Below are positions 9,089 through 31,662 of a stretch of DNA of 64,000 nucleotides, piece by piece. The stretch's first letter is position 1; every line of letters starts with the position of its first letter. The notes below the pieces were generated by a model that was given only the letters and a program-made list of their open reading frames with translations, was not told the origin of the DNA and searched no databases. The translations under genes and the position numbers were made by a program. This DNA comes from Candidatus Peribacteria bacterium RIFCSPHIGHO2_01_FULL_51_35 (GTDB lineage Bacteria > Patescibacteriota > Gracilibacteria > Peribacterales > Peribacteraceae): positions 22,564 to 86,563 of the forward strand of contig MFXP01000002.1 of the NCBI GenBank assembly GCA_001787535.1, written 5' to 3'.

Positions 9089-9160
9089 GTATGTAGTGTA
9101 CAGATGTACACCTGAAGAATCAATTAAACAGTCTTGCACTTCGTACACCTTCCAGGCGAA

Positions 9161-9233
9161 ATGACCAATGACCATAGACCAATGACCAAAAAAGAAATCA
9201 CCCTGGTCATTGGTCATTGCGTCATTGGTCATT
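9161..9233. repeat. Iterated-word hairpin (AATGACC word)
   Basis: atgaccaatgaccatagaccaatgacca ... tggtcattggtcattgcgtcattggtcatt. Confidence 0.85.
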
Positions 9234-9242
9234 CATCATCAT

Positions 9243-10637: not shown

Positions 10638-12207
10638 TGTGCGAGAGGATGCGTGGCAGTTCCCCGCTCCATGGCGGCCAGAGCTGAATCTGAACTTTCT
10701 CGACCTCCGGAAGGTTTTTGATGATCCGCAGCGCATCCTCCTTGGACATACCTGCCACTTCCTCGCGCATTTTCTTATTAAGCCTGGCGCCCGTGGGAGC
10801 AAGCGCGTCCAAGACGAATTGTTCGGTGCCCGTGAGATCGACTGTCAGCTTGATCCAGGAGAGGTCATCCGCATAGTCGATGACGTGGACGATCATGCGT
10901 TCCATTTTCAATGTATCTTTGAGTAATTCACGGCCTTCTGTGACGTGCGCTTCCAGTTCTTCGCTGAGCATATTTAAGATCGCTTGAGAGTCGTATGCAT
11001 ACGCGGTGTAGGAGATTTTCCCTTCGATGGGGATGGATGTGACGGGCTCGCCCAAGAACTGCGTTGGAAGCACAAAGTCGTGATATTCGATCTTCGTCAG
11101 TTCATCGTAGTAGAGCATTTCGTAGACGACGCCTTCACCCTTGCCCACGTTCCGCAGAATCCTCTCCTCATCCACCAGTTGCTTGGCATTGGAAAGCAAC
11201 TCGTGCTCCAGTTTTTTCTTCGCAAGATCCACGTCCGCTTGCGAGAGCACGGTGCGATAGGACGTCGTTCCGCCCTTCACGTCGGCTCGATTTTCCCCGT
11301 AGATGAGGGTGCGTTCCTCGGGAGCCAACCCCGGAAATTCCCATTTGATGCCTGCGGGGACATTCGCGCGCGCGCCGATGATTTCTCCGTAAATGTCCAG
11401 GTTTTCCGCACGTGTGCGTATGGTGAGCTCATCCCCCGCCGAAATGTTGATGGGTTCCAAGGTTTTGAAAATCATGCCCGCCTGGTTCATGAGTCGCGTG
11501 CCCGTGCGCAGCGAATAGCGTTCGTTGGATTTGTTGATGATCGTGATAAGAGCCTCTGCGCTCTTGCCGATGAATTCCTTGCTGATTTGATCGAACGTGA
11601 TGGATTTTTCGATGATCACATTGATGGGAATGAGGGGCATGGTACGCACACGGGAGGAAGCTAGCAGCACGGCTCCCGAGGTCGTCAAAAAGATGTTCGC
11701 CGTTTGGTTGACGTTGTCTTGTCGCGGCCAAATGCGGATTTCTGCGGACGGGAGCAAGCGGAAAAAGACGAAGAGGAAAAGTCCGGCGCTCACGGCGATC
11801 AATATCCAAATGCGGATTTTCGGCAGTGACAGAAGTCCCATGGATTGCAAGCGCGAGCGCAGTTCCTGCCGCCACACGTGCGGCGAAAAAAGGCGGATTG
11901 CTTCCTCCGCGCTCGTGTGGTCTTTGAGGATTTCTCTGAGCTCGCGCGTGCCATCCACCACGCGTACGCCGCTTCTGCGGGTCGCCATAGCCAGCGGTTT
12001 CAGTTTTGTTGCGATGCGCAGTCGACTGCGAATTTTGACGCACTCCTTCAAAAACCCTTCGCGATCTTCCTTCTTTGGAAAGAGTGTCTCTTCACTGCCG
12101 GAGAGCATTGCGATCACTTGCCCCTCGGTTTCCGAGAGTCGTTTTGCAAATGCACTCCATGATTCTTCTTCCTTGGGAAAAAGAACGATGAGAGATTCGG
12201 GTGCCAT
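10615..12207 (-). CDS. Baseplate J/gp47-like membrane protein (CPR-type)
   Basis: 530 aa, one central TM (IRIWILIAVSAGLFLFVFFRLL), long beta-rich C-terminal region; tentative resemblance. Confidence 0.55.
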   Translation of the reverse strand: MAPESLIVLFPKEEESWSAFAKRLSETEGQVIAMLSGSEETLFPKKEDREGFLKECVKIRSRLRIATKLKPLAMATRRSGVRVVDGTRELREILKDHTSAEEAIRLFSPHVWRQELRSRLQSMGLLSLPKIRIWILIAVSAGLFLFVFFRLLPSAEIRIWPRQDNVNQTANIFLTTSGAVLLASSRVRTMPLIPINVIIEKSITFDQISKEFIGKSAEALITIINKSNERYSLRTGTRLMNQAGMIFKTLEPINISAGDELTIRTRAENLDIYGEIIGARANVPAGIKWEFPGLAPEERTLIYGENRADVKGGTTSYRTVLSQADVDLAKKKLEHELLSNAKQLVDEERILRNVGKGEGVVYEMLYYDELTKIEYHDFVLPTQFLGEPVTSIPIEGKISYTAYAYDSQAILNMLSEELEAHVTEGRELLKDTLKMERMIVHVIDYADDLSWIKLTVDLTGTEQFVLDALAPTGARLNKKMREEVAGMSKEDALRIIKNLPEVEKVQIQLWPPWSGELPRILSHITIEPQT

Positions 12208-13403
12208 TACGTTTCAAGAAGGGCTAAGGCAGGCAAATGTTTGCCCGCAATGTATTCCAGCATCGCACCGCCGCCGGTGCTCACAAATGTGTATGCATCC
12301 AGCGGATAGCCGTAGCGCCGGTGGAAATCAATGGTGTCTCCCCCGCCGACGATGGTAACGGCTCCCCGCTTTGTTGCGGCCGCAACGGCCTCCGCGATTC
12401 TCTTGGTGCCGTGTGAAAAACGATTCACTTCGTAGAATCCGAGCGGTCCGTTCCAGAGAATCATCTCCGCTTTCTCAATCACCATGATGTAGCGTTCGAT
12501 GGTGACTTTGCCGATGTCGAAGATCGCCATGTCTCCGACAATGTCCTCCACCGGAAGATCGATCTTCTCAGCGCCCTCTATCGCTTCGGTGGCAACAACA
12601 GCGTCCCGCGGAACGAGAATGTTTGCTTTGCCGTCATTGTCTGCCAACAACATCAATTCCTGTGCTTTCGGTACATATGCTTCTTCATATTTCGATTTGC
12701 CGACATCAAACCCACGTGCCGCAATGAAAGTGTTCGCGACGCATCCTCCTAGTAAAATGTCGTCGCCTTTCGATAGAAATTGCTCAATGATCGGAATTTT
12801 CGTTTCCATCTTTGCTCCACTGATGATGAGCACCAGCGGTCTGCGCGGATCATCGTGCACTTTCGACAGATATTCGAGTTCGTGCGCCAGGTTGAGTCCT
12901 GCGGAGCTTGGGAGCAACTTTGGAAGCTCCACCATGCTGGCATGTTTCCTGTGCGAATTCGTAAATGCATCGTTCACGTACATGTCCCCCAGAGCAGCCA
13001 AATGTTTCGCAAGCGAGGGATCATTTTTCTCTTCGCCCGGTTCGAAGCGCAAATTTTCCACGAGCAACACTTCTCCCGGTTTCAAACTCATTGCCATCTT
13101 TTCCGTTTCGCTGCCTACAACATCGGGTGCAAATGCAACCGATCTCCCGAGTAGCTTCTCGAGAACGGGAACCAGCGGCTTCTGCGTGAACGCGAGATCT
13201 TTCTTTCCTTTCGGCCGACCTTGGTGCGAAAGAACAACGAGCGATGCTTCGGCATCCAGTATCACCTTCATGGTCGGAATAACGGCTTCAATACGTTCAA
13301 AATCCACTACTTTTCCCTCTTCGATAGGCACATCGAATCCGGCACGTACGATCACGCGCTTCCCCTTCATTTTTGATGAATCCATTGTGCGGTAACGGCT
13401 CAT
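12207..13403 (-). CDS. pgk: Phosphoglycerate kinase
   Basis: KRVIVRAGFDVPIEEGKV, SHQGRPKG, NLRFEPGEEKND, WNGPLGFYEV, TIVGGGDT, FVSTGGGAMLEYIAGK. Confidence 0.97.
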   Translation of the reverse strand: MSRYRTMDSSKMKGKRVIVRAGFDVPIEEGKVVDFERIEAVIPTMKVILDAEASLVVLSHQGRPKGKKDLAFTQKPLVPVLEKLLGRSVAFAPDVVGSETEKMAMSLKPGEVLLVENLRFEPGEEKNDPSLAKHLAALGDMYVNDAFTNSHRKHASMVELPKLLPSSAGLNLAHELEYLSKVHDDPRRPLVLIISGAKMETKIPIIEQFLSKGDDILLGGCVANTFIAARGFDVGKSKYEEAYVPKAQELMLLADNDGKANILVPRDAVVATEAIEGAEKIDLPVEDIVGDMAIFDIGKVTIERYIMVIEKAEMILWNGPLGFYEVNRFSHGTKRIAEAVAAATKRGAVTIVGGGDTIDFHRRYGYPLDAYTFVSTGGGAMLEYIAGKHLPALALLET

Positions 13404-13481
13404 AGGTGCGTAGTGTACGCAGGAAGTGCAGAGTTTTCCACTCTGTTGACGGAAGATGGCTTCAGTATAAAATTTCATCAA

Positions 13482-13550
13482 GTGAACGCCATGATGGTGT
13501 TCGCACGGCGGCTGAGTGTTAAGGGACTAGAGAGGTGCTCAGCCGCCTCT
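13482..13550 (+). ncRNA. Putative structured RNA module 0
   Basis: GGCGGCTGAG (13507-13516)/CTCAGCCGCC (13538-13547); preceded by TTGACG at 13446. Confidence 0.45.
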
Positions 13551-13578
13551 TCATACGAAATGTGATATAATTTCTTCA

Positions 13579-13645
13579 CGTGCAGTCGAAACTGCACGTA
13601 TGAGAACAGCGGCCAAGAACCTTCGGGTTCTTGGCCGCTTCTTTG
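13579..13645 (+). ncRNA. Putative structured RNA module 1
   Basis: CGTGCAGT-CGAA-ACTGCACG, then AGCGGCCAAGAACC-TTCG-GGTTCTTGGCCGCT; preceded by tgatataat extended -10. Confidence 0.6.
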
Positions 13646-13700
13646 ATGATATTTTGTAATGATTACTTGACGTTCCTTCCACTCACATTAGTATTTTGAT

Positions 13701-13790
13701 ATGCAGCAGCTCTCCAAATCTGTTGCATGTAAGCAAGGCGAGCTTTTGCTCGCCGGCGGTTGGGACAGGTACCCCCAACCGCCTTTTTTC
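13701..13790 (+). ncRNA. Putative structured RNA module 2 with intrinsic terminator
   Basis: ATGCAGCAG/CTGTTGCAT, GGCGAGC-TTTT-GCTCGCC, GGCGGTTGGG/CCCAACCGCC + T6; TTGACG at 13667. Confidence 0.6.
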
Positions 13791-13844
13791 GGCTTCGGAC
13801 AGAAGTTGACGTATTCAATCTTTTACGTAAATGAGTATTAGTAC

Positions 13845-13911
13845 CTTGCAGCTTGCTGCAAGCGAACAGCGGTCGAGTGCTTCTCCACAGGCCTCGACCG
13901 CTCATTTAAAA
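13845..13911 (+). ncRNA. Putative structured RNA module 3
   Basis: CTTGCAGC-TT-GCTGCAAG, AGCGGTCGAG/CTCGACCGCT; TTGACG at 13806. Confidence 0.55.
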
Positions 13912-13949
13912 ATTCAAGGAATGAGTCTTTTCCTCTATCATCGGAAGCA

Positions 13950-15017
13950 ATGACTTTGCTTCCACTTCTTGCGTTTGCCCTCACTGCACTGGTTCATCTG
14001 GCAGCACTGAAAATTTTTCCGGCGCTCGGAATTCTGGATTTTCCCGAACGGTACGGATTCAACCGCCCGAGACTCCCCTATCCAACGGGAATCCTTTTGA
14101 TTATTTGTTTCATCGCAATTTTTCTTTTTCTCGAAGAAATGACGATGCAGTCTGTGGGCGTGACCATCGGAATCGCGCTGCTCGGCATCTTCGCATTCAT
14201 CGATGACCGCACTCCCCTCCCCTCTTCGCTCAGGCTCGGTATTCAGATCCTGGTTGCGCTGATTATTTTCCTCACCGGAACACGCATCTTTTCGCTCACG
14301 AATCCTCTTTCTGTCGTTTTCCCTTCCTCTGTCATCGACCTGGATAACCTGGTTATCCCTTGGGCCTTTTTTAGCAATCCTTCCGTCATTGGAGCGCTGT
14401 TCACGGTCATCTGGCTCGGGCTCACGATGAATGCCTTGAACTGGTTCGATGGTATTCCGGGACAAGTGAGCACACTCTCGGCGATCGGTTTCTTCACGAT
14501 TGGATTTCTTTCGTTGAGTGACCGCGTGAATCAACCCGAACTCGCAACGATCGCTTTTGTTCTCGGATCCATCTCCTTGGCGGCACTGCTTTTCGATTTC
14601 CCCCCGCCTCGCGTGCTCATGGGCGATACAGGGTCGATGTTTTTTGGCCTCATGCTCGGCGTGCTTACGATCTACGCGGGTGGAAAAGTGGCAACGGCGT
14701 TCCTTGTCCTCGGCGTACCATTGATTGATAGCTTGATCGTGATCGTGCGACGTTTGCTGAAAGGCGTTTCGATCTTCCGTGGCAATACTCGCGATGAACA
14801 TCTTCACCATCGCTTACTTCTGAAAGGATGGTCTGCGCGGCAGATTATTTTGCTCACAGCGGCCATCGGTGCAGGCTTCGGCACGAGCGCTCTCTTCATG
14901 AGCACATTGGAAAAATTCCTTGCGGGGATCGTGTTATTCATTCTCATGCTGTTTCTTTCCTATTATTCACGTCCCGAGATCGATCCCGCAGGCGCGGGAT
15001 CGATCTCTACGAAATAA
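13950..15017 (+). CDS. WecA/MraY-family undecaprenyl-phosphate glycosyl-1-phosphate transferase
   Basis: Multi-TM, FIDDR, NALNWFDGIPG, MGDTGSMFFG, RDEHLHHRLLLKGW. Confidence 0.93.
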   Translation: MTLLPLLAFALTALVHLAALKIFPALGILDFPERYGFNRPRLPYPTGILLIICFIAIFLFLEEMTMQSVGVTIGIALLGIFAFIDDRTPLPSSLRLGIQILVALIIFLTGTRIFSLTNPLSVVFPSSVIDLDNLVIPWAFFSNPSVIGALFTVIWLGLTMNALNWFDGIPGQVSTLSAIGFFTIGFLSLSDRVNQPELATIAFVLGSISLAALLFDFPPPRVLMGDTGSMFFGLMLGVLTIYAGGKVATAFLVLGVPLIDSLIVIVRRLLKGVSIFRGNTRDEHLHHRLLLKGWSARQIILLTAAIGAGFGTSALFMSTLEKFLAGIVLFILMLFLSYYSRPEIDPAGAGSISTK

Positions 15018-31572: not shown

Positions 31573-31592
31573 GAAATAATTGTAACATGAAT

Positions 31593-31662
31593 AAATGACC
31601 AATGACGCAATGACCAATGACCAACACTATCTTGGTCATTGGGATCTGGTCATTGGTCATTA
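31593..31662. repeat. Iterated-word hairpin (AATGACC word), second copy
   Basis: aatgaccaatgacgcaatgaccaatgacca ... tggtcattgggatctggtcattggtcat. Confidence 0.85.

Follow-up and report, generated by a model that had tools for sequence, protein, structure and literature searches.

A tandem array of four putative small RNA units between pgk and a wecA-like gene in Candidatus Peribacteraceae

Results

Four tandem hairpin modules occupy the gap between pgk (− strand) and a wecA-like gene (+ strand) in a member of Candidatus Peribacteraceae (Patescibacteria). Their layout suggests that they are four paralogous sRNA genes, encoded on the + strand in divergent orientation to pgk and specific to the species or genus, a reading of putative units that we hold with about even confidence. 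The array is real and unusual, and most likely constitutes another case of a known type. Its B hairpins are found at positions 13507-13902 of the window, as we call the whole stretch of 64,000 nucleotides analysed (Table 1). The host genome (1,196,444 bases, 1.196 Mb, 18 contigs) represents the sole species of its own genus among the genomes compared. Both neighbouring genes had been named correctly in the first-pass annotation, as their Pfam matches confirm, and such a divergent pgk/wecA-like pair is frequent in the family.

Table 1. Features of the array and its neighbours (window positions)
Feature	Position	Strand	Basis
pgk (phosphoglycerate kinase), divergent neighbour	12207..13403	-	Pfam PF00162 (PGK), 2e-126
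Module 1 promoter-like site: TTGACG, 16 nt, TAAAAT	13446..13473	+	consensus scan; sequence
Module 1 hairpin A: GTGAACGCCA tga TGGTGTTCGC	13482..13504	+	fold
Module 1 hairpin B: GGCGGCTGAG...CTCAGCCGCC, then TCTTCATA	13507..13547	+	sequence, fold, pair count
Module 2 extended -10: TGATATAAT	13563..13571	+	sequence; motif type enriched 5' of host genes
Module 2 hairpin A: ACGTGCAGT cgaa ACTGCACGT	13578..13599	+	fold
Module 2 hairpin B: AGCGGCCAAGAACC ttcg ..., then TCTTTGAT; terminator-like	13608..13639	+	fold, pair count, terminator test
Module 3 promoter-like site: TTGACG, 16 nt, TAGTAT	13667..13694	+	consensus scan
Module 3 hairpin A: ATATGCAGCAG...CTGTTGCATGT	13699..13730	+	fold
Module 3 extra hairpin: GGCGAGC tttt GCTCGCC, abuts hairpin B	13737..13754	+	fold
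Module 3 hairpin B (13755-13783): GGCGGTTGGG...CCCAACCGCC, T6 tail (13784-13789)	13755..13789	+	fold, pair count, terminator test
Module 4 TTGACG (13806-13811), -10-like TATTAG (13836-13841)	13806..13841	+	sequence; rejected by consensus scan
Module 4 hairpin A: CTTGCAG cttg CTGCAAG	13845..13862	+	fold
Module 4 hairpin B: AGCGGTCGAG...CTCGACCGCT, then CATTTAAA	13868..13902	+	sequence, fold, pair count
Possible own promoter of the wecA-like gene: TTCAAG, 17 nt, TATCAT; 3' of array	13913..13941	+	sequence; inference
wecA-like gene (glycosyl transferase family 4), downstream neighbour	13950..15017	+	Pfam PF00953 (Glycos_transf_4), 9e-24

Structure and uniqueness of the modules

The four modules share a hairpin B of 29-41 nt with a RGCGGYYRRG stem, located exactly as annotated (13507-13516/13538-13547, 13608-13617/13630-13639, 13755-13764/13774-13783 and 13868-13877/13893-13902). 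Over the four copies, 40 of 40 stem pairs are Watson-Crick, and both sides are changed in 5 of the 10 pairs. The stem covariation of 0.60, as compared with 0.30 in shuffles, was reached by none of 500 shuffles, and slid stem partners gave at most 0.25. The reported covariation of the stems therefore stands in so far as pairing is kept while the bases change, but the copies are paralogues in one genome and not sequences from different species, so that tandem duplication followed by repair between the arms could yield the same covariation. Furthermore, since no G-U occurs among the 40 pairs, an upkeep of the arms at the DNA level is possible.

Compared with their own dinucleotide shuffles on the + strand, the folds of modules 1 to 4 have z scores of -4.2, -8.1, -6.3 and -5.2, and module 2 is nearly fully paired. 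The additional hairpin claimed to precede each stem is recovered by folding 5' of all four (hairpin A), and module 3 has two of them. Hairpin A is unalignable across the modules, so that the covariance model was built on hairpin B. Outside hairpin B, the modules resemble each other weakly: modules 1 and 2, and 2 and 4, are alignable beyond chance (7/500 and 5/500 shuffles, respectively), the remaining pairs are not. The loops of hairpin B (TGTTAAGGGACTAGAGAGGTG, TTCG, ACAGGTACC and TGCTTCTCCACAGGC) have no stretch in common.

The pattern GCGGYYRRG-N(4-30)-CYYRRCCGC occurs at five places in the genome, four of which are the array and the fifth an unrelated match. The 1,196,444 bases contain 199 perfect stems with a minimum length of 10 bp, among which the array forms the sole cluster of four; the other two clusters have three members each and are made of dispersed repeat families. 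When applied to the whole genome, the covariance model of hairpin B retrieved nothing beyond the array, the extra matches being the reverse strands of two array hairpins.

The genome is also rich in dispersed, REP-like families of perfect palindromes, a large share of which start with GTAG (e.g. GTAGAGACGCGCG-att-CGCGCGTCTCTAC). Examples are found at L016:1312-1480 and at window positions 9160-9236 and 31591-31661. Tandem GACCAATGACCA repeats are present as well.

The modules could alternatively be DNA palindromes of the REP or MITE kind, or binding sites for a protein, forming a family that multiplied at one spot and yields no discrete RNAs, its arms being kept by DNA-level processes, e.g. 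template switching between them, or by a DNA-binding protein. This would suit a genome full of dispersed palindrome families, the fully Watson-Crick stems and the relatives without homologues, but not the local character of the stem family, given that the other palindromes are dispersed near-identical copies, nor the confinement of T-rich tails and promoter-like boxes to one strand, nor the second, unrelated hairpin 5' of each stem. We regard this explanation as unlikely.

Promoter-like and terminator-like signals

The TTGACG hexamers noted upstream of three modules are confirmed for modules 1, 3 and 4, with three on the + strand in 470 nt against 0.07 expected from the genome count (P ~5e-5). 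The promoter consensus scan accepts the sites of modules 1 and 3, and that of module 4 has a nonstandard spacing. The tgatataat attributed to module 1 was misplaced, since TGATATAAT lies 3' of the module 1 hairpins and 5' of module 2. Its extended -10 type, TGnTATAAT, is enriched 5' of host genes (21 forward and 5 reverse, 1.8 expected). TTGACG is unenriched 5' of genes in this genome (12 forward, 13 reverse), so that its role as a -35 box in the array is putative. Hairpin A of modules 1 and 2 starts 7-9 nt past the -10-like box, thus the putative RNA would begin with a hairpin. As a side observation, the promoter-like site of module 1 lies less than 80 nt from the start of pgk (13403, - strand) and would either overlap with the oppositely oriented pgk promoter or face it.

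T-rich module ends had also been claimed, and overall 18 of the 32 nucleotides 3' of hairpin B are T (P 0.001), all T-rich tails being on the + strand; this description fits modules 1 (TCTTC) and 4 (CATTT) poorly, as their tails are weak. The T6 ascribed to module 2 is actually located 3' of module 3, where it makes, together with hairpin B, the best terminator among the four modules. Only modules 2 and 3 pass the terminator test. With genes called crudely from ORF length, the array is the only one among the 145 divergent gaps of the genome with two same-strand terminators. As annotated, a protein-coding explanation fails, for the coding signal is absent; an 80-aa ORF on the - strand was rejected since it matches no family.

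Two other explanations were considered. The array could belong to the leader of the wecA-like gene, its modules being stacked attenuators or insulating terminators that block read-through or set the expression of this gene. This would be consistent with modules upstream of the gene and codirectional with it, two of them passing the terminator test. However, four stacked terminators require four antitermination events, promoter-like boxes recur within the array, and such a leader is disfavoured by the gene's own possible promoter just 5' of its ATG and by the many relatives with a -10-like box near the wecA start and no such array; we find it rather improbable. A single, stable or processed RNA of ~430 nt with eight or nine hairpins is very improbable, for although such an RNA would suit contiguous modules with several tails too weak to terminate efficiently, T6 follows module 3, new promoter-like boxes precede modules 2, 3 and 4, the modules fold independently and no Rfam family fits. 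A replication origin was rejected, with dnaA elsewhere (contig C9), one near-DnaA box in the array and an uninformative skew.

Homology searches and the same locus in relatives

The covariance model search proposed in the first-pass annotation retrieved no homologue by sequence in 74 genomes of the family or 288 genomes of the class. Weak model matches in the genus g54 were discarded, as they lie inside open reading frames, where the same stretch recurs in three species; the remaining weak matches are ordinary single terminators. Nucleotide searches of 40 relatives, phages and plasmids gave only short chance or coding matches, and the stem pattern has 11 single matches in viral contigs, none of them tandem. 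No Rfam family scores above its gathering cut-off in the region, the best sub-threshold one being Pxr (21.9 bits versus a cut-off of 80). A lack of homologues in relatives was one of two outcomes named beforehand as speaking against an RNA family, and it is what we found; unrelated + strand promoter-terminator units in other Peribacteraceae, described below, partly rescue the idea.

In many relatives, a - strand ORF of ~107-126 aa lies between pgk and wecA (e.g. in L060, L049 and L050). The ~107-aa ORF weakly resembles only the N domain (substrate-binding) of shikimate dehydrogenase, with an E value of 0.003 that is below the cut-off, and is absent from the array genome. The gap measures 47-306 nt in relatives without the ORF versus 565 nt, by the same measure, in the array genome, hence the array contributes several hundred bases. 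In the closest relative, the contig stops ~75 nt 5' of wecA. In L052, L057, L060, L066, L067 and L080, the gap from pgk to the ORF reaches 480-840 nt and contains hairpin units, most of them with + strand T runs, as well as several TTGACA boxes. These long-gap units occur in two other genera (g56 and g54; e.g. L052:1900-2060 and L067:2040-2290). Two species share one of these units at 76% identity, including TTGACA and the terminator GGCACCTGC...GGTGCCTCTTTTATTT, and it has no further counterpart in the family. Over all loci, including the array, terminator-like sites number 14 on the + strand and 4 on the - strand. Judged by their sequences, the relatives' units are positional counterparts of the array, unrelated to it in sequence, and the locus upstream of pgk looks like a recurrent, fast-evolving sRNA site.

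Some further elements were observed in the relatives. Several hairpins start with GCGCGG, which may or may not be significant, and L060 and L066 have two long-range hairpins each, with GCGCGGAYCC or GGGYGCRA at their start. One of the relatives' units contains a purine-rich GGAGGT before a tiny ORF (MADTQWFVFSSTSTMQR / MADQRMLLVSVHLPMQMM), at L067:2153-2215 and in the corresponding part of L080; a CACCTC stretch there could pair with GGAGGT, a possible leader peptide arrangement.

Discussion

The proposal of a tandem family of short structured RNAs remains the best reading of the array, given the tails, the terminators and the noncoding character, although it is weakened by the lack of homologues and by two weak tails. 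According to this proposal, each unit would have a promoter-like box, begin with a hairpin close to or at the 5' end and finish with hairpin B. The latter would also serve for intrinsic termination, for which modules 3 (clear) and 2 (fair) are better suited than modules 1 and 4 (weak). The predicted products would be compact two-hairpin RNAs of ~65-90 nt. The units probably originated by tandem duplication followed by drift of hairpin A, the loops and most of the flanks, only the pairing of hairpin B and its RGCGG core being kept. A common antisense seed is unlikely, for neither the loops nor the linkers have sequence in common and hardly any of module 2 is unpaired. The RGCGG stem being the conserved part, protein binding is the most natural guess as to how such RNAs might act; that they are bound by a protein, or else that the act of transcription at this place matters, is nonetheless speculative and, in our estimation, improbable in itself.

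If transcribed, the array would represent an sRNA locus with several copies, in a genome in which searches for Hfq and ProQ found neither. The position beside pgk, which unrelated units occupy in other genera, would then allow tests of how RNA genes arise and turn over at a fixed site. In a bolder version that we consider doubtful, the gap upstream of pgk in Peribacteraceae would be a recurrent nursery of fast-turnover sRNAs free of Hfq and ProQ, represented in the array species by four two-hairpin RNAs with a conserved RGCGG stem bound by an RNA-binding protein. Our search of the open-licence literature found no relevant report on small RNAs of Peribacteria or Peregrinibacteria.

Several known systems resemble the array in part. 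Integron attC arrays are likewise tandem folded sites in which pairing is better kept than sequence, and attC sites have RYYYAAC / GTTRRRY ends. By eye, against this consensus, no such ends surround the stems, whose flanks read AAC-R...Y-TCT or similar with the GTT partner absent, and no cassette ORFs lie between them; integron sites were thus rejected. The REP and other palindromic families of the same genome are, like the array, short GC-rich intergenic hairpins, but they are dispersed near-identical copies, many starting with GTAG, whereas the stems of the array are diverged, confined to one locus and embedded in a composite unit. Apart from a single unrelated pattern match, the stem pattern and covariance model match one place, in contrast to the many near-identical scattered copies that define REP elements.

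Among RNA families, Brt1-9 of Bartonella are multicopy short RNAs with a strong 3' stem-loop (PMC8070961), two traits that the putative RNAs of the array would share. Each Brt RNA attenuates a separate regulator gene, located immediately 3' of it (PMC8070961), whereas the modules are stacked with no gene between them. Tandem sibling sRNAs such as OmrA/OmrB, PrrF1/PrrF2 and AbcR1/AbcR2 are well known (PMC4211561). Siblings have a shared pairing sequence and, in the best-known cases, work together with Hfq (PMC4211561); the loops and linkers of the array share nothing, and no common single-stranded seed was found among its loops. The siblings number two, whereas the array has four copies of a putative RNA, and no Hfq or ProQ was found in its genome. 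Its units are related, with promoter-like sites at modules 1, 2 and 3 and with only modules 2 and 3 passing the terminator test. Both systems consist of short intergenic tandem units; those of the array would run from a promoter-like site to a terminator and be of similar size, OmrA and OmrB being 88 and 82 nt long (PMC4211561).
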